From: Mucilaginibacter arboris
Lineage (GTDB): Bacteria; Bacteroidota; Bacteroidia; Sphingobacteriales; Sphingobacteriaceae
DNA: 64,000 bases
Reading direction: 5' to 3'
Assembly: GCF_009754915.1 (NCBI RefSeq)
Contig: NZ_WPIK01000010.1
Location: 62,001-126,000 of the forward strand
Part shown: piece by piece, positions 16,702 through 30,900 of the stretch
How positions within the stretch are numbered: the first letter of the stretch is position 1
Layout of the letters: each line of letters begins with the position of its first letter
Program-made: the position numbers and the translations under genes
Notes under the pieces: model-generated
Database searches by the model: none
What the model was told of the DNA's origin: nothing
The model's input: only the letters and a program-made list of their open reading frames with translations

Positions 16702-16729
16702 TGCTTCAATATTAAATCTTTTCAAAAAC

Positions 16730-16760: not shown

Positions 16761-16795
16761 AATTTTATGTTAAGATTTGATGAAGTTGATAATGT

Positions 16796-18517
16796 TTATT
16801 CAAACCAACTCATCACCGTTTCTTTTGCAGGAATAGTCATATCCAATTTCAGCTTTTTCCGCATTCCGCCCAGATCATTAAATACTTTGTTGGGCACTGC
16901 TTTTTTCAGGTCATCAACGGTGTGAAACCCCATTTTCTGAATTACCGGAACCCATTCTTCCGGAACGCCAATTTTTACAAAATCTTCTGTTGAAGAAACT
17001 ACCGCTTTATTTTCTGGCCGCATTTGCGGGAAGAACAAAACTTCCTGGATTGTACTTTGGTTAGTCATCAGCATTACCAAACGGTCAATACCGATACCTA
17101 AACCAGAAGTTGGCGGCATCCCGTATTCCAAAGAGCGCAAAAAATCCTCATCCACAACCATTGCTTCTTCGTCGCCACGGCTGGCTAATAATAATTGTTC
17201 CTCAAAACGTTCCCGCTGATCAATCGGATCATTCAATTCAGAGTAAGCATTTGCAATTTCTTTTCCGTTTACAAACAACTCAAAACGCTCTACCAAACCT
17301 TCTTTACTACGATGTTTTTTGGCAAGCGGTGTCATTTCAATAGGATAATCAGTGATATAAGTTGGCTGGATTAATTGCGCTTCTACTTTTTCGCTGAAAA
17401 TTTCATCGATCAGTTTTCCTTTTCCCATAGACGGATCAACTTCAATCTGCAGATTTTTACAAGTTTCTCTTAAAGCCGCTTCATCCATTGCTGAAACATC
17501 GATGCCTGTATATTTCAAAATAGAATCATACATGGAAAGTTTTTCATACGGTCCTGCAAATTCTATCTCATTTTTTCCAACCTGAATTTTAGTTTTTCCG
17601 TGGATAGCCAAGGCTACTTTTTCCAGGCATTCTTCTACCATGCCCATCATCCAGATGTAATCCTGATAAGCTACGTAAATTTCCAACCCGGTAAATTCAG
17701 GATTATGCGTACGGTCCATTCCTTCATTCCGGAACATTTTTCCGAATTCATACACACCGTCAAATCCTGCAACAATCAGTTTTTTCAGATACAATTCATT
17801 GGCAATCCGCAGGAAAAGCGGAACATCTAAAGCATTATGATGTGTTTTAAACGGACGGGCAGCAGCACCGCCATGCACGGATTGTAAAATTGGTGTTTCT
17901 ACTTCCATCCAGCCCTGGTCGTCAAAATAACTACGCATAGTTTTGATCACTTTAGAGCGGTTGATGAAGATCTGCTTGAATTCCGGGTTAACCGTTAAAT
18001 CAACATAACGTTGTCGGTAACGCAATTCAGGATCGGTAAAACTATCGAAAATATGTCCTTCTTCATCACGTTTTACAACAGGAAGTGGTTTTAAAGATTT
18101 CGATAGGATCGTTAATTCCTGTACATGGACAGAAATTTCTCCGGTTTGCGTAATAAAAACAAAGCCTTTAACACCCAAAAAATCACCAATATCTAAAAGC
18201 TTTTTAAAAACAGTATTGTATAAAGTTTTATCCTCAGTCGGACAAATATCATCACGTTTTACATAAACCTGGATACGGCCAGTTGAATCCTGCAACTCTG
18301 CAAAAGAAGCGCTGCCCATAATACGGCGGCTCATGATGCGGCCGGCAATTTGAACGGATTTATATTTCTCCGGATTTTTTTCAAATTCCTGCAAAATCTC
18401 CTGTGCAGTTGCAGTAACCGGAAAAGCTTCGGCAGGATAAGGGTTAATACCTAAATTACGTATGTTTTGAAGCGCCTCGCGGCGTAGGACTTCCTGTTCG
18501 GATAGATTTGTACTCAT
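16796..18517 (-). CDS. lysS: Lysine--tRNA ligase (class II)
   Basis: LysRS charges tRNA-Lys with lysine. Starting at the ATG at 18517 ([16 protein letters not shown]) gives 573 residues. The longer frame from a TTG at 18547 lies within the -7 promoter box and is rejected. Visible features are the OB-fold anticodon domain ([17 protein letters not shown] near 40-60), motif 2 ([15 protein letters not shown]) and motif 3 ([13 protein letters not shown]). A C-terminal extension of about 70 residues ending in FE is normal for Bacteroidota LysRS. Transcription ends at the 16730 hairpin. Confidence 0.96.
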
Positions 18518-18544
18518 TATATTTTCACCAAAGATTGTAGCTGG

Positions 18545-18552
18545 CAAAAATA
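18545..18552 (-). promoter_or_regulatory. lysS promoter -7 box
   Basis: The minus strand reads TATTTTTG, matching the Bacteroidota -7 consensus TAnnTTTG, 27 bp upstream of the chosen ATG. A near-identical orphan copy lies at 25925-25932. Confidence 0.65.
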
Positions 18553-18556
18553 GGTT

Positions 18557-18590
18557 TTAATGCTAAATTTTAGGTGGTAAAAGAAGTATT
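18557..18590 (+). repeat. Left 33-bp direct repeat around the PIN toxin-antitoxin module
   Basis: It starts TTAATGCTAAATTTTAGG and ends TAAAAGAAGTATT. It matches 19454-19486 at 31 of 33 positions. The toxin-antitoxin genes lie between the two copies. Confidence 0.8.
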
Positions 18591-18650
18591 AATAAAGAAG
18601 GGATTTTTAGATGTCTTGTATTACTCAAAAGGCGGATTTATAAAATCAGA

Positions 18651-19076
18651 CTAACGGTTAATAATTCTCATTTCTAAATAATCGTCAGGTGTCATTACTG
18701 CCAAAGCACTATTTTTATAGTCTTTTGTATTTCTGGTAACAATTAAATCTATTTCCTTACTCAGTTCTGCCGTATAATTTTGTAAGGCATCTTCAAAATC
18801 TTTAAAATCTGAACTTAAAGCCTGTACAACTGCATTTCTGTCAATCACTAATATTTCGGTAATAGAAATTAACATTTTCAATTTTTCTATAACCTTTTCG
18901 TGTTTTGCTGTTTGCCTTAAAAGGTAATAAACGTTACTGATTATTACAGGTGTTATACTACCGGTAATTTGCTTTGATTCACAAAGAGACAATATCTTGG
19001 CAGCAACGTTCGAAAATGGTTGCCTGTCAAAAAAGAAGTCCAAGATAATATCGGTATCAATTAAAATTCTTGTCAT
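18651..19076 (-). CDS. PIN-domain toxin (VapC-like RNase)
   Basis: This 141-residue PIN-domain protein has the first acidic motif ILIDTDIILDFFF (D8) and later acidic residues in DFEDALQNYTA (about 92-102). The last strand is IDLIVTRNTKDYKNSALAVMTPDDYL. PIN toxins are Mg2+-dependent ribonucleases. It lies 3 bp after the antitoxin gene on the same strand, as expected for a type II pair. The module is flanked by 33-bp direct repeats carrying the dispersed motif. Confidence 0.88.
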   Translation of the reverse strand: MTRILIDTDIILDFFFDRQPFSNVAAKILSLCESKQITGSITPVIISNVYYLLRQTAKHEKVIEKLKMLISITEILVIDRNAVVQALSSDFKDFEDALQNYTAELSKEIDLIVTRNTKDYKNSALAVMTPDDYLEMRIINR

Positions 19077-19079
19077 TGC

Positions 19080-19328
19080 CTACAAATACTTTTCGGACAA
19101 CCGTTTTGAAAGTTCTTTATTATAATCAAGATCTGCTGGGCCAGTAAAAGAGCCTTTTAGTAATTTTACAGTTGGCGTAATTTCGATAGTTTCCGGACCG
19201 CTATCTTTTGTAATTGCTTTAAGATAGTTCTCAATTAAATCTGATAAGCTGCGCCCTTTATCTTTGGCATATTTTTTTGCTTTTTCTATTATGGCTTGTT
19301 CAATTGTTAAAGTTAATTTCGTATTCAT
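19080..19328 (-). CDS. Antitoxin of the PIN module (DUF6364-like)
   Basis: The start at the ATG at 19328 (MNTKLTLTIEQAIIEKAKKYAK) gives 82 residues. The longer frame runs into the promoter. The sequence looks like a ribbon-helix-helix-type DNA-binding N terminus (KLTLTIEQAIIEKAKKYA, GRSLSDLIENYLKAI) with a C-terminal tail that would bind the toxin. Such antitoxins usually repress their own promoter. The stop is 3 bp from the toxin start. Confidence 0.82.
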   Translation of the reverse strand: MNTKLTLTIEQAIIEKAKKYAKDKGRSLSDLIENYLKAITKDSGPETIEITPTVKLLKGSFTGPADLDYNKELSKRLSEKYL

Positions 19329-19329
19329 G

Positions 19330-19369
19330 ATATACGTGTTTATTTTATTTTTTTTATACGTATAAAGAT
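19330..19369 (-). promoter_or_regulatory. Possible operator for the toxin-antitoxin operon
   Basis: Two TATACGT words (19331-19337 and 19357-19363), the second within the palindrome TATACGTATA, are separated by an A/T tract. They lie immediately upstream of the antitoxin ATG, where an autoregulatory operator would be expected. Confidence 0.4.
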
Positions 19370-19453
19370 AATAGGTTTTTCTTATATAAACAATATAGCC
19401 AAAGCAATACATTGTTTTTTGCCGCTTCAGCTAAGATCATAGTATTTGAAAAA

Positions 19454-19590
19454 TTAATGCCAAATTTTAGGTGATAAAAGAAGTATCGATAGAAAGGACA
19501 GGAAAAATCTACTATTTTGATTTCAAGAAACAGGATCACAGATCCTAAGCTCAAAAGATTGTGATTGTAAATCCCAACCAGTCGAGATTT
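19454..19590 (+). repeat. Right direct repeat plus 100-bp repeated tail
   Basis: The first 33 bp repeat 18557-18589. The following sequence (GACAGGAAAAATCTACTATT ... GGATCACAGATCCTAAGC ... TGTAAATCCCAACCAG) is repeated nearly exactly at 25970-26065. It includes the palindromic word GGATCACAGATCC. Confidence 0.8.
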
Positions 19591-19682
19591 ACTTGATAAG
19601 TCGTTATAGATCAAATATACAATTTTGATTTGAATAGTAAGTTAAGTAGCTGAATTGCAAATCCCAACCAGAGGATTAACAC

Positions 19683-19704
19683 TTTTAGGCGATAAAAGAA
19701 GCAT
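19683..19704 (+). repeat. Dispersed GAAGCAT motif copy with extended tail
   Basis: CTTTTAGGCGA joined to TAAAAGAAGCAT. The downstream 35 bp (CAACCCAAAAAAGAGGGC ... AAAAGTTTAA) recur after the copy at 22273. It is preceded by another GCAAATCCCAACCAGAGGAT word of the second repeat family. Confidence 0.75.
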
Positions 19705-19819
19705 CAACCCAAAAAAGAGGGCTAGAAAAAAAGTTTAAGATTGAGATTAAAAATCCTTAGCCCGAAAGGGCCGGACTGTAAATTAGAAGCATTGTGATCA
19801 GTGGGATTTCAGAGCAAAG

Positions 19820-19942
19820 TCAAAGATCTTTCATCATCAAACGTTCCTTTACCGTAAATATCCCTGCTTTTACCGCTTCACTCATCTGCTTTGCCTGTTT
19901 AAGATTGTGCTTCGTTTGGCTTCGGTTTAGTTTTGGTACATG
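19820..19942 (-). pseudogene. Possible 3' remnant of an unknown gene
   Basis: A minus-strand frame ends with TGA at 19822-19820 and reads KQAKQMSEAVKAGIFTVK then ERLMMKDL. This looks protein-like, but the frame has no clear start before it runs into the oppositely oriented monooxygenase gene. It may be the C-terminal end of a gene truncated when the monooxygenase segment arrived. The evidence is compositional only. Confidence 0.3.
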
Positions 19943-21115
19943 AAAACAAAAAAAGTATTAATATCCGGCGCCAGTGTGGCCGGGCCGGCACTGGCCTTTT
20001 GGTTGAACCGCTATGGCTTTAAGGTGACCGTGGTAGAGCGGGCGCCAGGTATCCGGCCAGGTGGCTATGCTATAGACTTTCGTGGCCCCGCCATGCAGGT
20101 ATTGGAGCGGATGAATATCGTGGACGCAATTAAAAAATTCGAAACCCGCGCGGGTAAGATCACTATCGTAGATAAAAACAATAAAAAGGTGGCCAGTATG
20201 CCGGATGGTTTTACCAGCGGCAAGTTGGAGATTATGCGCGGTGACTTAGCGAATGTTTTTTACGAGGCTACAAAAGATGATACCGAATATATTTTTGATG
20301 ACAGTATCACAGCTTTAAAGGAAGATGAGGCCGGCGTAGAGGTAAGCTTCAGCCGGAATAAACCCTGTCGCTTTGACCTGGTGGTTGGTGCGGACGGGCT
20401 GCATTCCAATGTACGGACAATAGCCTTTGGCGATGAAGCGCAGTTCTTGCATCACTTGGGAATATACTTCGCCATTTTTACCACGCCTAATTTTATGGAA
20501 CTGAAAGAAATGGCAGGCTTGTATTATGGAACATTGGGCAAGCGCATTGGCGTTTTTAGTGCGAAACAGGATACCGAGGCCAGGGCTAGTTTATATTTTG
20601 CCTCGCCTGCAATTACTTATAATTACCGAGATATCGGCCAGCAAAAGGCAATGGTCCGTGAGCGGTTTGAGGGGGAAGAATGGCAGGTGCCGCAATTGCT
20701 GAAATTTATGAGCGGTGCATCTGATTTTTATTTTGATTCGGTAAGCCAGATTAAAATGAACCGTTGGTCGCGGGGACGGGTGGTGCTAATGGGAGACGCA
20801 GCTCACTGTGCCTCGCCCATGTCAGGAATGGGCACCAGTATGGCAGTTATAGGCGCTTATATTTTAGCAGGCGAGTTGCAGATGGCGCATGACGATCATA
20901 CCAGGGCTTTTAACAGCTATGAAGGACAAATGCGACCCTTGGTTGCATCGTGCCAAAAATTAGCCGAAGGGGCGGAATGGTTTTTGCCCACCACTTGGGT
21001 TAAGCTATGGCTTAGTCAGCAGATATGGAAGATCTTACCTTACACGCCCTGGAAGAATATGATGATTGAAATGCCCCTGAAAGCGGCTAATTCCATCAGC
21101 CTGAAGAATTATTAA
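19940..21115 (+). CDS. FAD-dependent monooxygenase (TetX/PHBH-type)
   Basis: This 391-residue class A flavin monooxygenase has an N-terminal Rossmann motif (LISGASVAGPALAFWL, a GxGxxG variant), the DG motif region LVVGADGLHSNVR near residue 150, and the GD motif GRVVLMGDAAHCASPMSGMG near 285. Such enzymes hydroxylate aromatic compounds, or antibiotics in the case of TetX. The substrate is not predictable here. The gene is flanked by dispersed repeats, and its coding composition (GGCCGGG-rich start) is more GC-rich than its neighbours, which suggests acquisition. Confidence 0.85.
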   Translation: MKTKKVLISGASVAGPALAFWLNRYGFKVTVVERAPGIRPGGYAIDFRGPAMQVLERMNIVDAIKKFETRAGKITIVDKNNKKVASMPDGFTSGKLEIMRGDLANVFYEATKDDTEYIFDDSITALKEDEAGVEVSFSRNKPCRFDLVVGADGLHSNVRTIAFGDEAQFLHHLGIYFAIFTTPNFMELKEMAGLYYGTLGKRIGVFSAKQDTEARASLYFASPAITYNYRDIGQQKAMVRERFEGEEWQVPQLLKFMSGASDFYFDSVSQIKMNRWSRGRVVLMGDAAHCASPMSGMGTSMAVIGAYILAGELQMAHDDHTRAFNSYEGQMRPLVASCQKLAEGAEWFLPTTWVKLWLSQQIWKILPYTPWKNMMIEMPLKAANSISLKNY

Positions 21116-21188
21116 ATAACCACCTGAGTGAAAGTGATGGGCAATTAGTTGGGGATCGACAGATCTTAAGTTTAAAGGTCGTAATTGC

Positions 21189-21266
21189 AGGATCATAGGT
21201 CCTAAGCTTGAAAGATCGTGATTACAAATCCCCGATCAGAGGATTACAAATCCCGACCCGAGGGGA
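21189..21266 (+). repeat. Second dispersed repeat family (GATCC-TAAGCT / AAATCCC words)
   Basis: It contains GGATCATAGGTCCTAAGCTT, GAAAGATCGTGATTACAAAT and a second ATTACAAATCCCGACC. Related copies lie at 19543-19590, 19658-19680, 25857-25890 and 26012-26065. All are intergenic and lie in the accessory region. Confidence 0.65.
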
Positions 21267-21297
21267 TAACTGCAAAACGATGCTGAAAATTTTTTGA

Positions 21298-21972
21298 TTA
21301 AAAAATATAAGGAATAAAGCGATAGCGAACTTTCTTTAAGTAATCGATATATCCAGTCAAATCTCTTGCTAACACTTTTTCTTCATTTATTGCCCTGGCA
21401 ACAACTAAGCATGAAATGATAATTGCAGGCAATAAAGCAATATACGACCCCAGACATAAAGGGGTAAACAGTATAATCAGGTAAGCGCCGCTATACATAG
21501 GATGACGGACCCATGCGTATAATCCAGTAGTAATAACCCTCTGCCCCTGATAAGCTTTAATATTGCTTGCCAGATATGTATTTTGCTTGAATACGATAAA
21601 TACGATCAGAAATCCTGTCGATACAACCACCTCGGAGAGTAACGTTATATAAAAAGGGATAGTTGACCAATGCTGCCTGAAATCAATGCCGGGAAGTATG
21701 AGCATCAAAACAAATAGCAAGCCATTTACAGATTGCAGCATTATTTGTGTCTTATTTGTTTCCGTATGTGTTCTACGCTCAATTAATTTTGGGTCTGTTT
21801 TTAGAAAATAGAAAGTCAATATAGATGTTCCGCAAATGAAGACCATTAAATAAATCCATGCTGCCTTATATTTAGTTGTTCCTGCCGGGACGAATAATGA
21901 TAAAGCCAATATCAGGTATAACAAGGCAAGCAATGCGCTAACTTTAAAAGTCAACATTCTTTTAAAATTCAT
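21298..21972 (-). CDS. Isoprenylcysteine carboxyl methyltransferase-family membrane protein
   Basis: I chose the ATG at 21972 (MNFKRMLTFKVS), giving 224 residues; the longer frame uses TTG. There are five to six hydrophobic segments. The C terminus has the ICMT/PEMT signature VRHPMYSGAYLI near 165 and NEEKVLARDLTGYIDYLKK near 200, which bind S-adenosylmethionine. The natural substrate of bacterial members is generally unknown. It stands alone between repeat-rich gaps. Confidence 0.8.
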   Translation of the reverse strand: MNFKRMLTFKVSALLALLYLILALSLFVPAGTTKYKAAWIYLMVFICGTSILTFYFLKTDPKLIERRTHTETNKTQIMLQSVNGLLFVLMLILPGIDFRQHWSTIPFYITLLSEVVVSTGFLIVFIVFKQNTYLASNIKAYQGQRVITTGLYAWVRHPMYSGAYLIILFTPLCLGSYIALLPAIIISCLVVARAINEEKVLARDLTGYIDYLKKVRYRFIPYIF

Positions 21973-22150
21973 AAGCTTTATGGTAAGCAACAAAAGTGAT
22001 TAAAATGACTGGCAGTAGTATCGATTTTTAATTTTAGCCGAAAATATTATTTGCCGATTTATTCTATCAACTTATTAAGGTGAAATTGAAACTGGCTAGA
22101 CTCATTCTTAGCTTTACATTAAAAAATAAAAGTTGAAGATTAAACTTTTA

Positions 22151-22337
22151 GGTTTCTGTTTAAATTTTTAAAGACTCCTTCGATATTCTCAGGATTGGTA
22201 CCCATGCTTCTTTTACCAGGTAAAAATTGATGTTTGAATGTATTTAATCAATCAAAAAAACAACGGTTAACATTTTTAGGTGATAAAAGAAGCATCAACC
22301 CAAAAAAGAGGGCCAGGAAAAAAGTTTAAACAACTTC
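22151..22337. mobile_element. MITE-like element A
   Basis: The ends are imperfect inverted repeats built on CTGTTTAAA: left TTCTGTTTAAATTTTT, right AAAAAAGTTTAAACAACTTC. Inside are two GAAGCAT motif copies facing outward as inverted repeats (22204-22228 minus, 22273-22295 plus). A word CTTCGATATTCTCAGGATTG at 22178-22197 is also present in element B. There is no coding sequence. Confidence 0.5.
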
Positions 22338-22397
22338 ATTGAAACAAATGTGAAATTTTTGTGTGTTAGCTTTTTTTACAAGTTTATTCAAATGCCG

Positions 22398-22420
22398 ATG
22401 CTTCTTTTATCGCTGAATTT
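22398..22420 (-). repeat. Dispersed GAAGCAT motif copy
   Basis: Minus strand AAATTCAGCGA joined to TAAAAGAAGCAT. The following bases (CAGGAACTGAAG) resemble the sequence after the copies at 26091 and 26958. Confidence 0.75.
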
Positions 22421-22538
22421 ATTAAGTAAAGCAGGAACTGAAGTTAGAAAACTTTCAGATGAAGACCTTTTCCCACTTGACACAAAACCACTATTAGCGG
22501 GCCGTTGTTGTTGCATCGTCAGTTCGTGGTGTTATTTC

Positions 22539-22910
22539 TTACTCCGATACAATGATATAATAACCGTCCAAGTCCCTTAGAATAAATTGTTGCTTTCCTG
22601 AATTAGGATTGTAGTGCAGTTCTTGTTCAATGTTCAGTTTTAAACGAACTGCGTTTCTCCAAATCTCTTGAAAGTTAGACACTTTAAAATACAGAATAAG
22701 CCCGTTGCCAACAGTAACTTTAGGATTTGTCATTGTCGGGTGATCGTGTTCTCCCCATTTATGCAGGCATAAGATAACTGTTCCGTCTTTATCGGTTAAT
22801 ATTTCAAAAGTGTCACCACCGTGATTGCTTTTACAATCTAACAGATCTTGATACCATTTTGAACTTATGGGAACGTCTTTTACTGCAATTATAGTTTCGC
22901 TTCTTGTCAT
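22539..22910 (-). CDS. VOC-family (glyoxalase/bleomycin resistance-like) protein
   Basis: This 123-residue protein with one vicinal-oxygen-chelate module begins with ETIIAVKDVPISSKWYQDLL, the classic beta-alpha start. It ends with FILRDLDGYYIIV, which carries the usual terminal metal-ligand position replaced by Y. The function is unspecific: lyase, dioxygenase or binding protein. It is the last gene of the ECF42 sigma operon. Its ATG overlaps the stop of a short upstream frame (ATGA), indicating coupling. Confidence 0.8.
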   Translation of the reverse strand: MTRSETIIAVKDVPISSKWYQDLLDCKSNHGGDTFEILTDKDGTVILCLHKWGEHDHPTMTNPKVTVGNGLILYFKVSNFQEIWRNAVRLKLNIEQELHYNPNSGKQQFILRDLDGYYIIVSE

Positions 22911-23038
22911 TCTACTACTTTGAGATTCTCATAGCTTTCAATTTTTTCCAATTGTTGTTGGCTGCAAACTTCTCGTATTCTTCCACCCGAACTTATGCCA
23001 ATAAAATTACAAGTTTTGATGTTAAAACTAATGCCCAT
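22907..23038 (-). CDS. Small protein or 3' gene fragment, 43 residues
   Basis: The frame MGISFNIKTCNFIGISSGGR then IREVCSQQQLEKIESYENLK ends in TGA overlapping the VOC start. The same frame stays open upstream to about 23119 without an ATG (GIILNICSLSDF), so this may be the tail of a truncated gene rather than a complete small gene. The residue pattern looks like real protein. No family was recognised. Confidence 0.45.
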   Translation of the reverse strand: MGISFNIKTCNFIGISSGGRIREVCSQQQLEKIESYENLKVVE

Positions 23039-23135
23039 TGAAAAACTTCTGCCCAAACTAAAATCCGATAAAGAACAAATGTTGAGAATTATTCCGTCCG
23101 CCTCACGAAAAAACCCATCTTATCTGCTGTTTTTA

Positions 23136-23450
23136 TTAAACGCTAACTGTATCATATAAATAAATTTGTACATCGCCATTGTCAGGTGCTAATATTTTTC
23201 TGTCTTCTGCACATTGTCTGCCAATATCTGTATCAAATGCTTTTTTTATCGCTTCTAAATTGTCAAAATATAAATTGCCAATCCAAAACGTTTCCTCATT
23301 ACCTGAAGGTGAGATAATGTTCCCTTTATTTACTATATATTTTCTTAAACCCGGAAGCTGCTTTGCAAGTGGAATGTGAACGTTATAATAATGTTTTTCA
23401 AATGCTTCTTTATTTTTTGGTGTTTTGTAGATCACTGTCATGTTTGCCAT
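23136..23450 (-). CDS. EthD-family protein
   Basis: This 104-residue ferredoxin-like dimeric alpha-beta barrel protein has the EthD pattern VIYKTPKNKEAFEKHYYNVHIP followed by LAKQLPGLRKY, and F/Y-rich strands later. EthD proteins accompany degradative or stress-response enzymes and their biochemical role is unclear. It lies 34 bp after the ECF sigma gene and shares its strand, so it probably belongs to that operon. Confidence 0.82.
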   Translation of the reverse strand: MANMTVIYKTPKNKEAFEKHYYNVHIPLAKQLPGLRKYIVNKGNIISPSGNEETFWIGNLYFDNLEAIKKAFDTDIGRQCAEDRKILAPDNGDVQIYLYDTVSV

Positions 23451-23484
23451 AATAATTCTATTTCTGTTTTGATGAAAATTTTTT

Positions 23485-24735
23485 CTAAATTGTTTTTTTG
23501 TCCTTTTTTAGTTTTAATAATTCAATTTCCTTTGTTAGCGTTTGTTTTTCAATCTTGGATGTTGTAAGCTTAATGGCATGTTGGTAATGAGAAATCGCTT
23601 TTTCTATGTCCGTGCCTGCATATAAGTAGCCTAACAATCCGTGATAATAGTTGCTGTCTGTCAGGTTAAGTTTTTCGGCTTCTGTAATAGCTTTTTTGTG
23701 TCCGTAAACTTTGGCATAAGCAAATACCCTGTTCAACATCGCTATGGGCGAATACTCAATAAGAATAAGCTGATTGTATAACTGTAAAATGTGTTGCCAT
23801 TTGTTTTTCTCTGTTGGTGTTGTGTGCCAATAGGCAATGGCAGCTTCCAAATGATATTTTGAAACTTCGTTTCCGTTGCAGGCATTTATCAAATAGTTGT
23901 TGCCTTTTTCAATTAACCATTTGTCCCACAAATTTTTGTTTTGTTCGTTAAAAAGAATTGCTTCGCCTTTTTCGTTTGTTCTTGCATCAAGTCTTGAACT
24001 TTGAAAGTACATTAACGCCAATAAAGCATTTGTTTGCGGTGTATTGGTCAATATGTTTTCTGTCAATGTCAAAGTCAGTCTGATGGCTTCCAGACAAAGT
24101 TCTTTTCTGATAGGTAGATTATTGGTTTTGGAAAAATAGCCTTCGTTAAACAGCAAGTATAAAGTTTTCAAAACGGTATTTAACCGTAATTTGATTTCAG
24201 GTTGGCTTAACGATTTGATTTGAAAATTATCGTTGCGAAGATTATTCCTTGCCCGCTGCAAACGTTTTTTAATAGTTTCGGTTTTTGTAAGAAAAGCATT
24301 AGCGATTTCTTCAATGCTAAAACCACAAAGAATTTGTAGTGCTAAACATATTTGCGCCCCGGCAGAATTGATTGGATTGCAAACTAAAAAAATCATTGCT
24401 AATTGGCTATCTGCAATATTTTGATTGGTGAATTCAAAATCACATTCAGCTTCAATTCCACCTGGTTTTATCGCTTTCTGAACCTGTGTTTCAAACACGG
24501 CAAAGTGCTTGAAATAATCTTTGGCTTTATTTTTGGCAACAGCGTAAAGCCACGCTGTTGGGTTTTCCGGTATTCCGTGAACAGCCCAACTTTCAGATGC
24601 TTTTAAAAAAGTTTCGCTTGCAATATCTTCTGCAATTTCAATATTTTTTAATTGAAATGTTTTACAAAGTACAGCTACAATTTTGCTATACTCTGTCCTA
24701 AACAAATGTGGGGTTATTTCATTTTGTTTCATCAT
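23485..24735 (-). CDS. ECF42-type RNA polymerase sigma factor with TPR-like C-terminal extension
   Basis: This 416-residue protein has sigma region 2 at about residues 10-75 (EDIASETFLKASESW, WLYAVAKNKAKDYFK) and sigma region 4 at about 130-180 (GFSIEEIANAFLTKTETIKKRLQRAR). A roughly 230-residue helical, TPR-like tail follows. That long tail and the adjacent DGPF-domain gene are the hallmarks of ECF42 sigma factors, which lack a classical anti-sigma factor and whose tail controls activity. It lies 42 bp after the DGPF gene and is expected to regulate its own operon. Confidence 0.88.
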   Translation of the reverse strand: MMKQNEITPHLFRTEYSKIVAVLCKTFQLKNIEIAEDIASETFLKASESWAVHGIPENPTAWLYAVAKNKAKDYFKHFAVFETQVQKAIKPGGIEAECDFEFTNQNIADSQLAMIFLVCNPINSAGAQICLALQILCGFSIEEIANAFLTKTETIKKRLQRARNNLRNDNFQIKSLSQPEIKLRLNTVLKTLYLLFNEGYFSKTNNLPIRKELCLEAIRLTLTLTENILTNTPQTNALLALMYFQSSRLDARTNEKGEAILFNEQNKNLWDKWLIEKGNNYLINACNGNEVSKYHLEAAIAYWHTTPTEKNKWQHILQLYNQLILIEYSPIAMLNRVFAYAKVYGHKKAITEAEKLNLTDSNYYHGLLGYLYAGTDIEKAISHYQHAIKLTTSKIEKQTLTKEIELLKLKKDKKTI

Positions 24736-24777
24736 AGAAAATGCCTTTGCATTGTCTGCAAAGGCTTTTGCAAAAAG

Positions 24778-25119
24778 TTACATTGCACTAATTTCTCTAA
24801 TTTCCACGCTACCGCCAATAGAAAGAATTGGACAATCTTGAACCAAAGCTGTTGCTTCTTCAAGCGATGTAGATTTAATGAGTGTATAACCCATAATTGA
24901 TTCCTTGATTTCAGTATATGGCCCGTCTGAAATTATGCCATCGCTTTTCAATACTTTGCCTGAACTTACCAAACGGTTTCCCCTGTCAGATAATTTGTTT
25001 TGTGCTGCAAAGCCTGCAATCCAATTCATCCATATTTGGGTGTTTGCCTGCATTTCTTCAGGTGATGCTTTAGGCATAGACTGGTAATCTGCCCTAAATA
25101 CTAATAAAAATTCTTTCAT
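24778..25119 (-). CDS. YCII/DGPF-domain protein
   Basis: This 113-residue protein has the motif DGPYTEIKE (about residues 67-75) that names the DGPF family, followed by GYTLIKSTSLEEA. Such genes are the conserved partners of ECF42 sigma factors, usually cotranscribed and thought to be targets or modulators. It is the first gene of the operon DGPF - sigma - EthD - VOC. It has an ATG start with no obvious ribosome-binding site, as usual in Bacteroidota. Confidence 0.88.
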   Translation of the reverse strand: MKEFLLVFRADYQSMPKASPEEMQANTQIWMNWIAGFAAQNKLSDRGNRLVSSGKVLKSDGIISDGPYTEIKESIMGYTLIKSTSLEEATALVQDCPILSIGGSVEIREISAM

Positions 25120-25218
25120 TTGTTTAAAATTTTATTGTTCGTCTTAATAACGATCGACATTCCAAACAGGGGACAAAGTCCGTTAGTTTTTTTTGTAGGA
25201 ACGTATCGGTTTATATAA

Positions 25219-25400
25219 GAAGCCGTTTAAATTTATATCAGATCCTTCGATATTCTCAGGATTGATCCTGATGCTTCTTTTAGCACTATAAAATTAGCAT
25301 TTGCCCTTTGCCAAAAGATACAAAAAGCAAATGACCTTGCAGATTTTTAGGTGATAAAAGAAGCATATCAAATAATTTGAACAAAATTTAAAACAGCTTC
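25219..25400. mobile_element. MITE-like element B
   Basis: The left end is GAAGCCGTTTAAATTT (25219-25234). The right end is the reverse complement of GAAGCTGTTTTAAATTT (25384-25400), differing by one base and one inserted T. Two outward-facing GAAGCAT copies lie inside (25271-25294 minus, 25344-25366 plus). It shares the internal word CTTCGATATTCTCAGGATTG with element A. There is no coding capacity. Confidence 0.6.
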
Positions 25401-25537
25401 TAACAGGTAACGTTCCTGGGTTGATGAAGAACTGATATTTAAAATCTGTCAGCCCAAAAACACTTACTAAAGATAAGCAAGATTACAAATATCGGATAAC
25501 TTCCGGCCATTGGTTTTTGTCAAACCAAATGTTTCAA
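25398..25537 (-). other. attC-like arms, degenerate
   Basis: TTCTAAC (25398-25404) is followed by TTGATGAAGAACTGATATTT (25421-25440) and GTCAGCC. It then continues to a GGCCATTGGTTTTTGTCAAA CCAAATG arm at 25513-25537. The same two arms occur in better form at 26883-26919 and 27041-27072. Confidence 0.4.
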
Positions 25538-26068
25538 ACAGTTTATTTAAAAGCGTCAAATACAAATTTTGATTTTTTAAAACCTGCCAGAAGCGGTAAA
25601 AAACATACTTGAACATTTAAGCTTAAAGACGGCGGTTTAAAAGTCCGGGATTGTTTTTTGTGTAGCCAAAACCGTAAAGTTGATTTGTTATTTAGAACTT
25701 CCAAGTTGCATTTTAGCAACTTAAAGTTGGCTGGCAATACTGTTTTTACCACCCAAAAACTTGTTTACAGATTTTACACTGATAAAAACAGCATTGCGAA
25801 AAAGTCAGTGTAAACTTTTAACTGTTGCCAGAAACCGGCCTTGTGTAGGCGCTTTGAGGATCACAGATCCTAAGCTCAAAAGATGGTGATTACTCATAAA
25901 TTTTTCACCAAAAATTGTAGCTGGCAAAAATAGGTTTAATGCCAAATTTTAGGTGATAAAAGAAGTATTAATAGAAAAGACAGGAAAAATCTACTATTTT
26001 GATTTCAAGAAACAGGATCACAGATCCTAAGCTCAAAAGATCATGATTGCAAATCCCGACCAGGCGAG
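25538..26068. repeat. Non-coding repeat mosaic
   Basis: No supported gene. It contains two motif variants of the TAAAAACAG type (25737-25760 minus, 25771-25795 plus) and a second-family repeat at 25857-25890. An 80-bp copy of the lysS promoter and first codons lies at 25891-25972. This is joined directly, through one GAAGTAT motif copy (25946-25969), to a 100-bp copy of 19487-19590. Confidence 0.7.
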
Positions 26069-26206
26069 TTAAATTAATATTCAAATGTTAATGCTTCTTT
26101 TATCAGCTAAATTTTATTCCTTCCGCTGGAACTGAAGCAAAATAGCAAAACAAAAGTTGATATTTAATCCGTCAGCCAGTTTTTTGCCAAACCAATGTTA
26201 GCGGTA
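26069..26206 (-). repeat. 135-bp intercassette repeat, copy 1
   Basis: It is nearly identical to 26934-27074. From the GAAGCAT copy (26091-26113) it runs through TTCCTTCCGCTGGAACTG, AGCAAAATAGCAAAACAAAA and GTCAGCCAGTTTTTTGCC to GTTAGCGGTA at 26197-26206. The last 10 bp are the perfect inverse of 26873-26882 across the next gene. Confidence 0.7.
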
Positions 26207-26214
26207 GTTTTTTA

Positions 26215-26823
26215 TTAAATTATATTGGCAGTTTTTAAAATCAGATAAATTGCCATAGTTGATAAACCTATAATTATTATTCGAGTTACAAGTTTTGTAT
26301 AACCTTTTTCATTCCACTCCTCCCAATGAGTTGTTACTCGTATCGATTTTTCTTTACAAAGATCATCTAAATAGTCTATCAAATTTAAAATATCACCTCG
26401 GAAGAATTTGTTGTCATAGGAGTTTATGTAAAAACTGTTTGTTTGGTTATTGGTAGTTGGTGTATCGAAATAAATTTTAACACTGCGTTGGTTACTATTT
26501 AACTGTCGATCGATCCGGATCTTTTTAATGTCTTTAAAATGAATTGTCTCGGTTTTAACAAAGTTAAACGGAAGTTTTCTAATCCATTCGATTTTGAATT
26601 TTTCATTATCTACAATTATTGAGAATTGGCTATAAATGAAATAATAAAACAGTCCAAAAGTAAGAGCAAGCAAGCTCAGAATTAAGATAACAGTAAATGC
26701 GGCATTTGGAACCCATTTATTTATTTCAAGAGAAATCAGCAATAGTCCAAAGGTTACAAAAGGAAATAAAATAAGACCTCTATAAGGTTGGATTGATTTT
26801 ATGTCAAACCTCATTTGTGTCAT
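26215..26823 (-). CDS. Membrane protein of unknown function (cassette-like unit 1)
   Basis: This 202-residue protein has two N-terminal membrane segments (about 15-33 and 40-62), a soluble beta-rich middle region resembling a bacterial PH-like fold (SIIVDNEKFKIEWIRKLPF, FKDIKKIRIDR), and a C-terminal hydrophobic segment (about 178-198). No family is assigned. It lies alone between 10-bp perfect inverted repeats, as in an integron gene cassette, and reads toward the attC-like repeat at its 3' end. The start abuts a truncated GAAGCAT motif (AAGAAGCATTATG). Confidence 0.7.
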   Translation of the reverse strand: MTQMRFDIKSIQPYRGLILFPFVTFGLLLISLEINKWVPNAAFTVILILSLLALTFGLFYYFIYSQFSIIVDNEKFKIEWIRKLPFNFVKTETIHFKDIKKIRIDRQLNSNQRSVKIYFDTPTTNNQTNSFYINSYDNKFFRGDILNLIDYLDDLCKEKSIRVTTHWEEWNEKGYTKLVTRIIIIGLSTMAIYLILKTANII

Positions 26824-26872
26824 AATGCTTCTTAATGTGCTTTAGTAATGCAATCTGGTTGTGTGTCAAAAT

Positions 26873-27074
26873 TACCGCTAACGGAAAAGGCTTGGCGAAG
26901 AACTGATATTTGAAACCCGTCAGCCAAAACCAGAGTTAAATTTATAATCAAATGTTGATGCTTCTTTTATCAGCTAAATTTATGTTCCTTCCGCTGAAAC
27001 TGCAGCAAAATAGCAAAACAAAAGCTGATAAAACATTCGTCGGCCAGTTTTTTGCCAAACCAATGTTGGGCGTA
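26873..27074 (-). other. attC-like recombination site between two cassette-like genes
   Basis: The outer core sites are TACCGCTAAC (26873-26882) and GTTGGGCGTA (27065-27074), with GCCCAAC fitting RYYYAAC on the minus strand. Inner arms TTGGCGAAGAACTG (26892-26905) and CAGTTTTTTGCCAA (27045-27058) pair over 14 bp with two G-T pairs. The site is long for an attC (about 200 bp) because a GAAGCAT copy (26958-26980) and spacer lie in its loop. Confidence 0.45.
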
Positions 27075-27084
27075 GGCTTTTTAG

Positions 27085-27237
27085 TCAGCGTGTTTTCGGT
27101 TGCAATTTTGTTTTGTCCAGATAAGCTTGCAATTGTTCAAAAGTCATTCCTTGTATGTCTTTTGAAATATTCTCTTTAATTTCCCTAAAAAATTTGACAG
27201 TGTCAAACTCTTTTTCTTTTTTATCAATTGTTTTCAT
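27085..27237 (-). CDS. Small partner (likely antitoxin) of the PIN protein, 50 residues
   Basis: A frame from ATG at 27237 to TGA at 27085-27087 reads MKTIDKKEKEFDTVKFFREI followed by a helical stretch (KENISKDIQGMTFEQLQAYL). This pattern resembles the small antitoxins that accompany PIN proteins in Bacteroidota. It overlaps the 3' end of the toxin gene by 14 bp, so the two are translationally coupled, with the toxin first. It lies just inside the cassette-like boundary at 27074. Confidence 0.72.
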   Translation of the reverse strand: MKTIDKKEKEFDTVKFFREIKENISKDIQGMTFEQLQAYLDKTKLQPKTR

Positions 27238-27688
27238 AACCTACAATTTCTTTTGGTGAACGGATGTCAATGGTTGAATATCCTAACCGTAAATTTACAG
27301 AATTGTACCCACGGATTCTATAAACATTTACAATGTGTTTAAAGTTCCAGCTTACTAAAATGTCAACCTTGCTTAAAGTTGCAGTTGCAATGTGGATGCA
27401 ATCATCTAAACTTGTTTGCCCAACTACATTTTCGTCAATATAAGTTTGGGCAAGTTTTAAAGCTTCCGGCGTAACGCGTATAACTTCTTTTTGTTCATCT
27501 TTCAGGTCTTGGAAAAAGTCTTTGACACGTTGTGGCGCTTTTTGAAGTTCGCTTTCTGTCAGGTTTGAATAAACACAGACGATTTGTCCCAAAGCAACTT
27601 TTTCAAAAAGCATTGTAGTTTCTTTTTCGAATTCAATATCATATAAACCGCCGAAAACAGAAGTGTCAAAATAGAAGCGTTGGGTCAT
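27224..27688 (-). CDS. PIN-domain toxin (cassette-like unit 2)
   Basis: The start at the ATG at 27688 (MTQRFYFDTSVFGGLYD) gives 154 residues; the longer frame uses TTG. PIN features are FDTSVFGG with the first aspartate, TESELQKAP, TSLDDCIHIATA and VDILVSWNFKHI. It is likely an RNase toxin paired with the overlapping 50-residue gene downstream. The whole pair sits between GTTGGGCGTA and its perfect inverse TACGCCCAAC, as toxin-antitoxin cassettes in chromosomal integrons do. Confidence 0.85.
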   Translation of the reverse strand: MTQRFYFDTSVFGGLYDIEFEKETTMLFEKVALGQIVCVYSNLTESELQKAPQRVKDFFQDLKDEQKEVIRVTPEALKLAQTYIDENVVGQTSLDDCIHIATATLSKVDILVSWNFKHIVNVYRIRGYNSVNLRLGYSTIDIRSPKEIVGYENN

Positions 27689-27738
27689 GGGCGAATTTAC
27701 GAAAATCAATTTTATGTTCGATAGGTTTCACGTAAGCT

Positions 27739-27748
27739 TACGCCCAAC
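27739..27748 (-). other. Cassette-like boundary, outer core site
   Basis: TACGCCCAAC is the exact reverse complement of 27065-27074. The match continues for five more bases with one mismatch. It marks the 5' edge of the PIN unit on the minus strand. Confidence 0.5.
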
Positions 27749-27862
27749 TCTTTTATTGACGAAAGTCTCATAAATATTATTGAATTCCAATCCATTCCTC
27801 AGTCATAACTTTTATTCAAATCGCTATTGCAAACCCGATTAAATTATATTATAATATTTCAA

Positions 27863-27884
27863 ATACTTCTTTTACTACTAATAA
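27863..27884 (-). repeat. Dispersed GAAGTAT motif copy
   Basis: The minus strand reads TTATTAGTAG joined to TAAAAGAAGTAT, just downstream of the acyl-CoA ligase stop codon. Confidence 0.7.
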
Positions 27885-27891
27885 ACCCTCA

Positions 27892-29805
27892 TCAAACCAT
27901 ATCAATCTCCTGCAAATACAATTGATCAATTGCTTCCGCATATTTCTTCTCAATCACCTTTCTTTTGGCTTTTAAAGTTGGCGTAATTTCGCCTGCTTCC
28001 ATGCTGAAAGGGTTGCGTTTTACTTTGAAGTTTTTGATCCGTTCAAACTTGGCCAGTTCGTTAGATAGTTTTTTTACATCTTCATTCATCCAATCCACAA
28101 TACGTTTATCTTCAATAAAAACATCTGGTTGTTCAAAGTAAGCTTCATTTAAACCAAAAGTTTCCTGCAATATTTCTTTGGAAGGAATAATAAAAGCGGT
28201 AACATATTCGCGTTTATCGCCGATTAAAAATATCTGTTCTATTTTCGGACTTTTTAAATAGGTGTTTTCTACAGGAGTTGGATAAACATTTTTACCGAAA
28301 GAATTAACCAACATGTTTTTTAATCGGTCTGTTATCTGCAAGTTTCCTTTGTAAAAGCGGCCAATATCGCCTGTATGGAACCAGCCATCAGCATCAATTA
28401 CATTCCGGGTTTCTTCCGGTTTGTTCCAGTAACCTTTCATTACACAATGGCCGCGCGTGATAATTTCGCCTTCTTCTGATTCAAAATCAGGTTTAAAAGT
28501 ATCGTGGGTTTGGATGGTGTATATTTTTTGGGTATCAATGTTCTGGATTGCTACTTCTATGCGCGGAATAATCCTGCCTACGGTTCCATAAACCTGTCTG
28601 TCATATTCGGTAACAGACATTACCGGCGAAGTTTCCGTCAATCCAAATCCTTCCAAAACTTTAATGCCTAAATCTCCAAAAAACTCGCCTACGTTTTTTG
28701 GTAAAGCACCTCCGCCGGAGAGCATGAATTTTAATTTTCCGCCTGTTTTTTCTTTAATTTTGCTGAAAACCAATTTGTCCGCTAATTTATTTTCGGCACT
28801 TAAAATCAAGCCCGGGTTTTTGCCTGCTTCTTTTAGTACCCTAAATTTCCGGCCTTTCTCTAAACTCCATAAAAATAATTTGGTTTTGATCCCTCCGGAA
28901 GCTTGTCCGCTTTTCATAGCACGGTCGTGTATCCTTTCCAGCAACCTGGGTACACAACTTACTACCGTTGGCTTAATTTCGGCCATGTTTTTAGCCAGTA
29001 GTTCCAGGCTTTGTGCAAATGCAATTTTAGATCCTGTTGCCAAACAAACGTGGTAGGTTGCCGTACGCTCAAAAACATGTGAAAGCGGTAAAAAGGAAAG
29101 GAATACATCCTCTTTAGTGATAACTGTAATCTGGTCCAGAGAGGCACGCACATTTTGCGTTAAGTTATAGTGGGTAAGCATTACACCTTTTGGTGTTCCG
29201 GTTGTGCCGGAAGTATAAATTAAAGTAGAAACATCGGAAGTTAAAATGCTTTCGCGACAACTGTTGATGGTTGATAGATAAGCATTTAATACTTGTTTTC
29301 CTTCTGTAATTAAAGCTGAAAAGGAAATGATGCCTGCATTAAATTTAGCTTTTTCGGTATATTTCTGATAGTCATCAAAAATTGGGATAATGCGAATTAA
29401 TTCGGTACAGCTATTGGCAATTTTTAGTATTTTTTTGAGGAGAAACGGACTGCCAATCAATAAAGTTTTAGCGCCGGAATCATTCAGGATATATTCTATT
29501 TCTGTTTCTGAAAGGGTAGGATAGATGGAAGTATTTACTGCACCGATTTGCTGCAAAGCCTGATCGTAATATACATAATCCGGGCCGTTATCCAGAATTA
29601 GCGCTAAACGATCATTTTTCTTTATCCCCATATCTAAAAAATAGGCAGAAATGGCATTGATCTTTTCCAAAGCTTGTTTGTAAGTAATGTCTTCCCAAAC
29701 TTCGCCCACTTTATGGGTCATAAAAACAGCACTATCGGGATGGATATGATGAATAATATTTTGTAAAAGACTGGGAACAGTGGAATATTCGGTAACCGGG
29801 TTCAT
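27892..29805 (-). CDS. AMP-dependent long-chain acyl-CoA synthetase
   Basis: The enzyme activates fatty acids to acyl-CoA through an acyl-adenylate. The 637-residue protein shows the phosphate-binding loop YTSGTTGTPKGVMLTH near 195-210 and the adenylate motif GFGLTETSPV near 390. It also has WFHTGDIG near 465 and the C-terminal lysine domain. Its length and the LSGGGALP motif match the FadD15/bubblegum-type long-chain ligases of Bacteroidota. It is monocistronic, facing away from the isc genes. Confidence 0.9.
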   Translation of the reverse strand: MNPVTEYSTVPSLLQNIIHHIHPDSAVFMTHKVGEVWEDITYKQALEKINAISAYFLDMGIKKNDRLALILDNGPDYVYYDQALQQIGAVNTSIYPTLSETEIEYILNDSGAKTLLIGSPFLLKKILKIANSCTELIRIIPIFDDYQKYTEKAKFNAGIISFSALITEGKQVLNAYLSTINSCRESILTSDVSTLIYTSGTTGTPKGVMLTHYNLTQNVRASLDQITVITKEDVFLSFLPLSHVFERTATYHVCLATGSKIAFAQSLELLAKNMAEIKPTVVSCVPRLLERIHDRAMKSGQASGGIKTKLFLWSLEKGRKFRVLKEAGKNPGLILSAENKLADKLVFSKIKEKTGGKLKFMLSGGGALPKNVGEFFGDLGIKVLEGFGLTETSPVMSVTEYDRQVYGTVGRIIPRIEVAIQNIDTQKIYTIQTHDTFKPDFESEEGEIITRGHCVMKGYWNKPEETRNVIDADGWFHTGDIGRFYKGNLQITDRLKNMLVNSFGKNVYPTPVENTYLKSPKIEQIFLIGDKREYVTAFIIPSKEILQETFGLNEAYFEQPDVFIEDKRIVDWMNEDVKKLSNELAKFERIKNFKVKRNPFSMEAGEITPTLKAKRKVIEKKYAEAIDQLYLQEIDMV

Positions 29806-29869
29806 GAAACAACAAGTTTATAATGTATAATTTGGCAAGCCAAACTTAAATTATTTACGCACTAAAACA

Positions 29870-29901
29870 AAAAAGGGGTGCTAAAAGAAGCATCCCTTTT
29901 T
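29870..29901 (-). terminator. Terminator of the isc operon, built on a GAAGCAT motif
   Basis: AAAAAGGGGTGCT and AGCATCCCTTTTT form a hairpin around the loop AAAAGA. The core TAAAAGAAGCAT spans loop and one arm. On the minus strand it ends in a T run and lies about 22 bp after the iscA stop. Confidence 0.75.
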
Positions 29902-29922
29902 AAATAATATTTGTAAAGATTT

Positions 29923-30249
29923 TTATACGGAAAAACTTTCGCCACAACCGCAGGTACGGCTGGCATTTGGATTATGAAAGTTAAAGCCTTTTCCGTTTAA
30001 ACCGTCAGAAAAATCAAGTTCTGTACCGGCTAAGTAAAGGAAAGATTTCATGTCTAATGATATTTTAATCCCTTTATCTTCAAAAAACTGGTCTCCAGGT
30101 TTTATTTCGTTGTCGAAATCGAGTTTATATGACAAACCAGAACATCCTCCACCAGCAACAGAAACCCGCAGAAAATACGATTCGTTCAAGTTTGAAGCTT
30201 TAATCAGCTCTTCTACTTTACTTTTTGCTTTATCGGTTACGGTAATCAT
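29923..30249 (-). CDS. iscA: Iron-sulfur cluster assembly protein IscA/HesB
   Basis: This 108-residue A-type carrier has the three conserved cysteines C36 (GGGCSGLSYKL), C100 and C102 (RTCGCGESF). It delivers Fe-S clusters from the scaffold to target proteins in the cytosol. It is third in the order iscS-iscU-iscA on the minus strand. ErpA versus IscA cannot be separated by sequence reading. The operon ends at the 29870 hairpin. Confidence 0.92.
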   Translation of the reverse strand: MITVTDKAKSKVEELIKASNLNESYFLRVSVAGGGCSGLSYKLDFDNEIKPGDQFFEDKGIKISLDMKSFLYLAGTELDFSDGLNGKGFNFHNPNASRTCGCGESFSV

Positions 30250-30389
30250 TTATATGAGTTTTAAGTATTACGTTGTAAGTTTTATGTTGCTCAGCAATAC
30301 ATAAAAAAGTATGCTAAAAACAGTATGAGTGAATTTAAAAGTTGAAGCTTTAAAAACTTACAACCTATAACTCATCACTTACAACTCTC

Positions 30390-30803
30390 TTAATGGTGTA
30401 CTTTTTCCGATACTATCGGTGCAAAACCATTTTTAACGCGGTAATCATTGATGGCTGCTTTAATGGCATCTTCTGCCAAAACAGAGCAATGGATTTTTAC
30501 CGGTGGCAATGCTAATTCTTCAACAATATCCATATTATCAATTTTCATGGCATCGTCAATGCTCTTTCCTTTTAACCATTCGGTTGCCAAAGAAGAAGAA
30601 GCAATGGCAGAACCGCAGCCAAAAGTTTTAAATTTTGCGTCTTTTATCACGTTGTTTTCGTCAACTTCAATTTGTAAACGCATTACGTCGCCGCATTCTG
30701 GTGCGCCAACTAATCCGGTTCCTACTTTACTGCTGCTTTTATCCAAAGTACCAACGTTACGTGGGTTTGAATAATGATCGATTACTTTATCTGAATAAGC
30801 CAT
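30390..30803 (-). CDS. iscU: Fe-S cluster scaffold IscU
   Basis: This 137-residue scaffold has the three cluster cysteines at C37 (GAPECGDVM), C63 (TFGCGSAIASS) and C106 (KIHCSVLAEDA). The LPPVK motif next to C106 is the binding site for the HscA-type chaperone. It accepts sulfur from IscS and assembles [2Fe-2S]. It lies 95 bp after iscS and 140 bp before iscA. The iscU-iscA gap contains a weak TAAAAACAGTAT motif variant at about 30314-30325. Confidence 0.95.
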   Translation of the reverse strand: MAYSDKVIDHYSNPRNVGTLDKSSSKVGTGLVGAPECGDVMRLQIEVDENNVIKDAKFKTFGCGSAIASSSLATEWLKGKSIDDAMKIDNMDIVEELALPPVKIHCSVLAEDAIKAAINDYRVKNGFAPIVSEKVHH

Positions 30804-30875
30804 AGCTTTAAATTTTAATAGTTGTTTATGTAATTCAAAAATCTTGCCTTTGTATTATTAACAGACAAGATGACA

Positions 30876-30900
30876 ATGCTGTTTTTACCGGGTAAAAATT
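30876..30900 (-). repeat. Dispersed motif copy (TAAAAACAGCAT form) overlapping the iscS stop
   Basis: Plus strand ATGCTGTTTTTACCGGG then TAAAAATT. Its last two bases are part of the reverse complement of the iscS TAA stop. Confidence 0.75.

Follow-up and report, generated by a model that had tools for sequence, protein, structure and literature searches.

How a small operon for an extracytoplasmic function (ECF) sigma factor came to its present place in the genome of Mucilaginibacter arboris, and what switches it on, is the question raised by positions 22,539 to 25,119 of the window, by which we mean the whole 64,000-nucleotide stretch analyzed here (assembly GCF_009754915.1, contig NZ_WPIK01000010.1, positions 62,001 to 126,000 of the forward strand). 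In our judgment, the operon is probably an ECF42 self-regulating module that entered the lineage as integron-type cassettes and that now lies in a partly decayed, integrase-less cluster at a variable site. The gene order and strand proposed by an earlier sequence-only reading (DGPF, sigma, EthD, a fragment and VOC, all on one strand) were confirmed by coordinates and protein families:

25149-25175, minus strand: ECF42-type promoter TGTC-N19-CGTT, the single exact copy in the host genome
24778-25119, minus strand: YCII/DGPF gene, first of the operon (PF03795 above cut-off, E=5e-7)
23485-24735, minus strand: ECF42-type sigma factor of 416 amino acids, regions 2 and 4 followed by a DUF6596 tail
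23136-23450, minus strand: EthD-family reductase gene, 34 bp after the sigma gene (TIGR02118 above cut-off, E=7e-25)
22996-23129, minus strand: decayed attC-like site, formerly taken for a truncated frame (covariance model R1, filters off: 32.5 bits, E=3.2e-6)
22539-22910, minus strand: VOC/glyoxalase-family gene, last of the operon (PF00903 above cut-off, E=5e-5)

The sigma factor matched PF04542 above cut-off, PF08281 with 22.7 bits against a cut-off of 25.7, and DUF6596 (PF20239) with E=1.4e-31. ECF42 factors are marked by an extension of about 200 C-terminal residues rich in tetratricopeptide repeats (TPR), and a TPR-like tail had been proposed; the C-terminal extension is there, and no TPR model matched it at E<=1. 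The predicted ECF42 type of the sigma factor, suggested earlier from the gene order, is supported by its DUF6596 tail, by a YCII gene next to it, by the lack of an anti-sigma gene in the operon, and by a promoter with the spacing of two RpoE10 promoters in a Sinorhizobium (S.) meliloti table (PMC6180224), where transcripts start about 8 bp after CGTC. The host genome holds a single sigma factor of this kind, its second match being a weak generic ECF, and the same-genus genomes yielded weak generic sigma matches only. Of the 60 genomes searched (own included), 36 are other members of the family, and 9 of these 36 hold relatives of 46-79% identity; distant ones of 33-36% identity occur in G025, G028 and G037. 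Across the class, 47 of 295 genomes (own included) have a DUF6596 match above cut-off. The YCII gene lies upstream of the sigma gene in most relatives. In trees confined to Bacteroidota relatives (leaving out the duplicates L083, L113 and L122, and L059, L112 and L057, which are partial or odd), the YCII protein (24778-25119) groups with Chryseobacterium (support 100/98) and the sigma factor (23485-24735) with Pedobacter and others (89/95); judging from such trees, inheritance of the two genes together is not strict. A mosaic origin of the window's pair was considered, but the trees fit a single YCII replacement in the sister clade equally well.

A search for an ECF42-type motif upstream of 25119 had been suggested, and the motif was found there, at 25149-25175. 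It is conserved among relatives: of 59 upstream regions (a set that excludes the same three duplicates and regions shorter than 120 bases), 39 contain TGTC-N19-CGYY, where shuffled sequence would lead one to expect 0.1, and in 28 of the 39 motif-bearing regions it stands 54-58 bp before the start codon. TGTCCC is present in 30 of 39 upstream regions, a count in which L003/L032 and L004/L033 each enter twice, and in close relatives it keeps a fixed distance before TCGTYAT. Sites with two mismatches number 2 in the host genome, fewer than the 6 obtained with the reversed control. Because the exact copy is found once in the genome, at this operon, we infer a single-operon, self-regulating switch, and the position of the EthD and VOC genes fits the earlier suggestion that they could be regulon members. 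By eye, the -10 region and the start (25130-25155) form a dyad TCGTC-N5-GACGA in several relatives, which is imperfect in the window.

The interval between the EthD and VOC genes holds a 70-codon open stretch, which had been described as a truncated frame. It had no Pfam match at E<=5 and no match in the 149 other genomes searched; a truncated gene was dropped on these grounds and because the attC covariance model matches the stretch, which is therefore better read as the relic of an attC-like recombination site. In one relative, L038, an EthD homologue (62% identical) follows the sigma gene directly, with a full attC-like site between the two. Rfam gave no match within window positions 15000-33000.

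It is the flanks of the YCII-sigma pair in some relatives, with palindromes on one or both sides, that show the borders of a cassette. In L036, a contig of a Chitinophagaceae metagenome-assembled genome (MAG), the block starts with GTTACCTGCC and ends with GGCAGGTAAC, the stop codon of the sigma gene lying within the end; in L032 (Pedobacter BS3) the start is GTTACCTGCT and the end AGCAGGTAAC; in L059 (an Arachidicoccus MAG), where the sigma frame is broken, they are GTTAGCGGC and GCCGCTAAC. In all three, the block starts at G^TT, the start is the exact reverse complement of the block's own end, and an attC-like palindrome begins where the block ends. The cassette ends of L033 and L035 look decayed, and L038 is without a start/end match. 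DNA alignments give the same limits: L036 and L032 share 91.6% identity over 4204-5907 of L036, where the cassette spans 4204-5898, so that identity begins at the crossover and stops 9 bp past the cassette end, and L036 and L059 share 89.7% over 4199-5905. L034 (80.6%) matches L036 at 4238-5910 and L035 (79.3%) at 4253-5899, neither with a detected site; as these limits of homology resemble those of the cassette, similar limits persist where sites are not seen. A scan of 350 kb that was blind to the operon returned 13 rows, against none in two Markov-shuffled sets. Among the 13 are the ECF42 cassette of L036 and other cassettes from L032, L036 and L038, several of them recovered twice; rows in the window, in L052 and one in L038 look like chance, and one row in L035 is ambiguous.

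The attC-like sites were modeled from alignment A1, from which R1 was built, with 12 sites from L032, L033, L036, L038 and the window; these match by construction, and L036_5889 was retained although partly misaligned. In the structure, an attC fold with R and L helices that was derived from the same sequences on which it was tested, 87.1% of cells are paired and cells with a double change number 40, against 14.5 in shuffles; sliding the pairing partners caused a sharp drop in pairing. A model-free stem scan gave 12 rows, against 3 in shuffled sequence; of the 12, the lowest 4 look like chance and 3 are repeat sightings in overlapping loci (L137 twice, L136). At E<=0.001, R1 found a site in at least 57 of 100 genomes, own included, the counts being lower bounds since at most 25 candidates per genome were scored. 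Applied to arrays of the host genome (G000) and of G001 and G002, which were picked because this survey pointed there, R1 gave 106 matches in 126 kb, on a single strand within each locus. The end is AAC in 99 of the 106 and the start is GTT in 99; the array cassettes have a median size of 474 bp.

When the cassette borders were fitted by the model, 92 consecutive pairs had clean ends. In 47 of them a cassette's start was complementary to its own end at all ten bases, and in 70 at 9 or 10 of 10, whereas permuted ends reached maxima of 6 and 16, respectively, and the two boxes of the same site gave 3 and 7 of 93. (A cruder count, 20 of 85 exact with a permuted maximum of 6, is superseded by the model-fitted ends.) A first scan for attC, which looked for R-box pairing within one site, returned nothing above chance; in arrays the two R boxes of a site belong to different cassettes. 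These figures bear on the view that the locus is an ordinary ECF42 operon, inherited vertically or plainly transferred, whose palindromes are terminators or repeats that are neighbors by chance. Palindromes behind genes can indeed end transcription, and the Chryseobacterium copies are syntenic and have no sites; however, terminators do not explain the excess of own-start/own-end closure (70/92) over same-site pairing (7/93), and homology of L036 to L032 or L059 ends at the crossover. We therefore regard an ordinary operon as quite improbable and retain an origin from cassettes.

In the window, the operon follows two closed cassettes in a cluster read on the minus strand, in the order PIN cassette, ORF202 cassette, decayed site, G^TTACCTG, dispersed repeat, promoter and operon:

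27065-27748, minus strand: PIN-domain cassette, start GTTGGGCGTA and own end TACGCCCAAC complementary at 10/10 positions
26873-27075, minus strand: intact attC-like site 1 (149 bits with R1, of whose training set it is a member; also found by the model-free stem scan)
26197-26882, minus strand: ORF202 cassette, start/end match 10/10, with an open reading frame (ORF) of 202 amino acids at 26823-26215
26029-26207, minus strand: attC-like site closing the ORF202 cassette (58.5 bits; 5' half recognizable, 3' half poor)
25402-25541, minus strand: decayed attC-like site before the start of the operon cassette (40.2 bits, E=6.3e-8, model positions 1-187)
25404-25411, minus strand: cassette start G^TTACCTG, identical in L036 and L032
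25216-25403, minus strand: dispersed palindromic repeat, element B with outer inverted ends, 8 bp inside the cassette start
22472-22501, minus strand: possible 5' end of a further attC-like site past the VOC gene (by eye)

The ORF202 cassette, whose protein has no Pfam family above cut-off, ends in TACCGCTAAC, the reverse complement of its own start GTTAGCGGTA. The PIN gene (27709-27224) matches PF01850 with 20.7 bits, under the cut-off of 23.6, and a small ORF lies downstream of it (by eye). The site at 25402-25541 may be complete in itself, as a site of the short type, or it may be what repeats have split off from the ORF202 site at 26029-26207, namely its 3' half; the stretch 25541-26029 is rich in repeats. 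Past the VOC gene, the model match is weak (22340-22503, 12.1 bits, E=0.11). With four attC-like matches by R1 (26873-27075, intact, and 26029-26207, 25402-25541 and 22996-23129) and no recombinase match on its contig, C2, the cluster classes as a CALIN (cluster of attC sites lacking an integron integrase). At least three cassettes were presumably joined in the operon, and the window's ECF42 copy is read, from its sequence, as a decayed, fused cassette.

The cluster lies in a variable island, which supports the view of the operon as accessory and mobile:

18594-27862: variable island of 9.27 kb, bordered on the left by a class II tRNA synthetase gene and on the right by an acyl-CoA-synthetase-like gene

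Both same-genus genomes (G001 and G002) are collinear with the window at about 15160-18593 and from 27863 on, and the island is missing from both, its position being taken by 49 bp in G002 and by 2.9 kb of other sequence in G001; in relatives the core of the operon is a cassette. Comparison of the flanks likewise showed that the operon is not syntenic in all relatives, in keeping with the mobility that had been proposed. The left neighbor matches PF00152 as a class II tRNA synthetase, which we take to be the lysyl type, and the right one looks acyl-CoA-synthetase-like by eye. At the same position of G001 (L134, 8912-11839), an acyltransferase-like ORF and a TIR-domain-like ORF can be made out by eye. 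An FAD monooxygenase within the island (19940-21115) matches the tetracycline destructase model below cut-off (296 of 550 bits), general FAD-binding families matching better.

The sequence-only reading had placed the operon between two elements, A and B, resembling miniature inverted-repeat transposable elements (MITEs), and had suggested that it moves as a unit between them. The elements are there (A at 22204-22295 and B at 25271-25366, with arms at 22204, 22272, 25271, 25343 and elsewhere), flank the operon closely and are 79% identical over 71 bp, left flank included; the edges of the island, too, coincide with repeat arms. The arm ATTTTTAGGTGATAAAAGAAGCAT, however, has 635 half-sites (<=2 mismatches) in the 4.16-Mb genome, against 0 for the reversed pattern, a sample of 220 kb from beyond the window holds the core of the A/B subfamily in three more places, B sits inside the cassette start, and relatives that are carried on cassettes have their borders at the G^TT crossover. 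Since the repeats are genome-wide and B is internal, the pair does not delimit a mobile unit, and a composite bounded by A and B is very improbable as the agent of movement: the elements were rightly seen and the mobility is supported, though by another mechanism, while the unit ends are not. In its compact form the repeat is palindromic and about 92 bp long, and its outer inverted ends are GTTTAAATTT. Its arm is found in 66 of 85 sites longer than 180 bp and in 0 of 18 sites shorter than 150 bp (L194-L204), which suggests that the genus-type site is a short one whose loop holds about 64 bp of the repeat, and long sites of about 200 bp may mark cassettes made in Mucilaginibacter. The collinear block with G001 begins exactly at a repeat arm, at window position 15157. 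The idea of balanced nested insertions of repeat arms was set aside; it was based on a chosen subset of arms.

What might move such cassettes is suggested by arrays elsewhere in the same genome, several of which (C13, C21, C24, C26, C29) are broken off at contig ends. On contig C13 of the host genome (G000), a tyrosine recombinase of 368 residues is followed by a 62-bit site and then by cassettes and sites up to the contig end; the 62-bit match of L194, which comes after the recombinase and before the first cassette, could be either attI or attC. The protein is under all NCBIfam cut-offs (XerA_Arch 203 against 220 bits; TIGR02249, integron integrase, 188 against 265), and about 99 N-terminal residues lie outside the matched domains. 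Against IntI4 (2a3v) it aligns in two pieces that leave the middle of IntI4 unmatched, and 91-97 residues separate GxRxxE from HxLRH in 18 members. Two Xer-like proteins of the host have 96 and 98 residues there, and the two IntI of G029 have about 133 and 128; the recombinase is without the IntI-specific insertion. In a tree the 18 members stand apart from IntI and Xer-like proteins, with modest support (85/87) and long outgroup branches (tree and spacing set leave out L215 and L224). At E<=1e-70 the recombinase is present in 19 of 100 genomes, all 19 of which have sites, against at least 38 of the 81 others (P=5e-6, uncorrected for kinship). A site lies in the fetched flanks of 12 of 20 recombinase loci at E<=0.1 (ten at E<=0.001) and of none of four controls (2 IntI, 2 Xer). 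In G000 and G002 the gene is directed along the array; in G337, G338 and G342 it is directed away from the array.

The cassettes could also be true integron cassettes that a canonical IntI moves in trans or moved when formerly present, rather than the array-side recombinase. Two canonical IntI genes occur in G029, of the same family as the host, and 38 of the 57 site-bearing genomes have no recombinase at the threshold used. IntI was above cut-off in only 1 of 200 genomes, though, namely G029, where the two genes (L170 and L171, In0-like) have no site in their flanks, at least 4 site matches being located elsewhere in that genome, and it is the array-side recombinase that co-occurs with sites and adjoins them. 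We judge movement by a canonical IntI unlikely, if less so than the two alternatives above, and the array-side recombinase would be the probable agent.

Several observations weigh against the cassette origin of the operon as a whole: (i) a site match stands beside the YCII-sigma pair in only 5 of 29 named sigma loci (L032, L033, L036, L038 and L059), and of these sites those of L033, L036 and L038 helped train R1, those of L032 and L059 being outside the training set; (ii) eight Chryseobacterium loci without a site match are mutually syntenic; (iii) the family given for L036 and L059 could be a binning error, as both are MAG contigs; (iv) in the window the ECF42 cassette is not closed, and neither after the sigma gene nor after the VOC gene was a sequence complementary to its start seen; (v) 20 of the 59 upstream regions are without the promoter motif (19 from sigmas of <=56% identity, the remaining one from L053), and the -10 element of the window is CGTT, not CGTC; (vi) 10 pairs of the site structure show a double change, a number within the usual range (65 of 500 shuffles), and one L036 site folded as DNA is no more stable than shuffles (z=-1.0); (vii) the co-occurrence of recombinase and sites is, as said, uncorrected for kinship, and genomes with many sites lack the recombinase at E<=1e-70 (G027 with at least 18, G339 with at least 21). 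The cassette form is part, not all, of the history of the ECF42 family here.

The mechanism that we propose runs as follows: (i) the cassette would carry its own promoter close behind its start; (ii) the sigma factor, controlled by its tail (the literature proposes participation of YCII), would transcribe YCII, sigma, EthD and VOC from the cassette promoter, no other strong target site being apparent in the host genome; (iii) the cassette would move by G^TT recombination at attC-like palindromes, most likely through the tyrosine recombinase beside an array of the host genome; (iv) loss or decay of sites would have made a single operon of the cassettes for YCII-sigma, for EthD and for VOC; and (v) dispersed palindromic repeats would have inserted into the cassette start and into site loops. 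Of this account, the sequences themselves show the cassette borders, the arrays, the conservation of the promoter and the absence from two same-genus genomes, while the activity of the sigma factor, its regulon, the fusion and the part played by the recombinase are deduced.

Beyond this locus, we lean slightly towards a broader proposal, that Bacteroidota hold a widespread integron system that surveys have overlooked and that spreads self-regulating sigma cassettes. We propose that the system was missed because its recombinase is without the insertion used to recognize integrons, and that a cassette bringing its own promoter and sigma factor would be expressible wherever inserted. Passages in three papers report integrons from Bacteroidota or the Bacteroidetes/Chlorobi group (PMC9668308, PMC8618304, PMC2426708), the IntegronFinder 2.0 paper names, in its relevant passage, one complete integron in Bacteroidetes proper, that of Salinibacter ruber (PMC9024848), and integron-type systems have hardly been noticed in Bacteroidota so far. 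By its own account, an early survey chose integrases by an additional domain or patch (PMC2426708), and in the account of Escudero et al. the I2 domain is found specifically in integron integrases, where it accommodates the extrahelical bases that folded attC sites present (PMC4792948). Smyshlyaev et al. 2021 report incomplete conservation of the integron insertion within their integron-like subgroup, so such enzymes have already been seen (PMC8138268); no report linking them to these arrays was found in the open-licence PubMed Central (PMC) literature, which omits most subscription papers. If the proposal is true, the step from Xer to integron becomes directly testable, and surveys that select integrases by the I2 domain undercount Bacteroidota integrons. 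ECF42, the signal of which is not known, would gain a mobile setting, the promoter and one or more likely target genes being carried along with the regulator.

Compared with known systems, the arrays resemble chromosomal integrons and CALINs in their short cassettes of the same orientation, attC-like palindromes, the G^TT crossover, the complementarity of a cassette's start and own end, and a tyrosine recombinase adjoining the array; unlike in integrons, this recombinase is without the integron-specific insertion, and most sites in Mucilaginibacter hold about 64 extra bp with a repeat arm. With simple tyrosine recombinases of the XerA/XerC type and the integron-like subgroup of Smyshlyaev et al. 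2021 the enzyme shares the catalytic motifs; it differs from XerA/XerC-like enzymes in about 99 unmatched N-terminal residues and in the location of its gene beside cassette arrays. Like the ECF42 members described in passages of PMC6180224 and PMC8999054 (Streptomyces venezuelae Sven_0747, P. putida ECF-10 and S. meliloti RpoE10), the sigma factor has a C-terminal extension, an adjoining YCII gene and no anti-sigma factor; the ECF42 promoter given there, TGTC-N19-CGTC, is comparable to that of the window, and the RpoE10 targets include glyoxalase-like genes, as does the operon with its VOC gene. Unlike known ECF42 systems, no TPR model is called in the tail, the -35 element is lengthened to TGTCCCC, EthD and VOC genes have joined the operon, the core is an integron-type cassette in relatives, and the promoter lies within the mobile unit.

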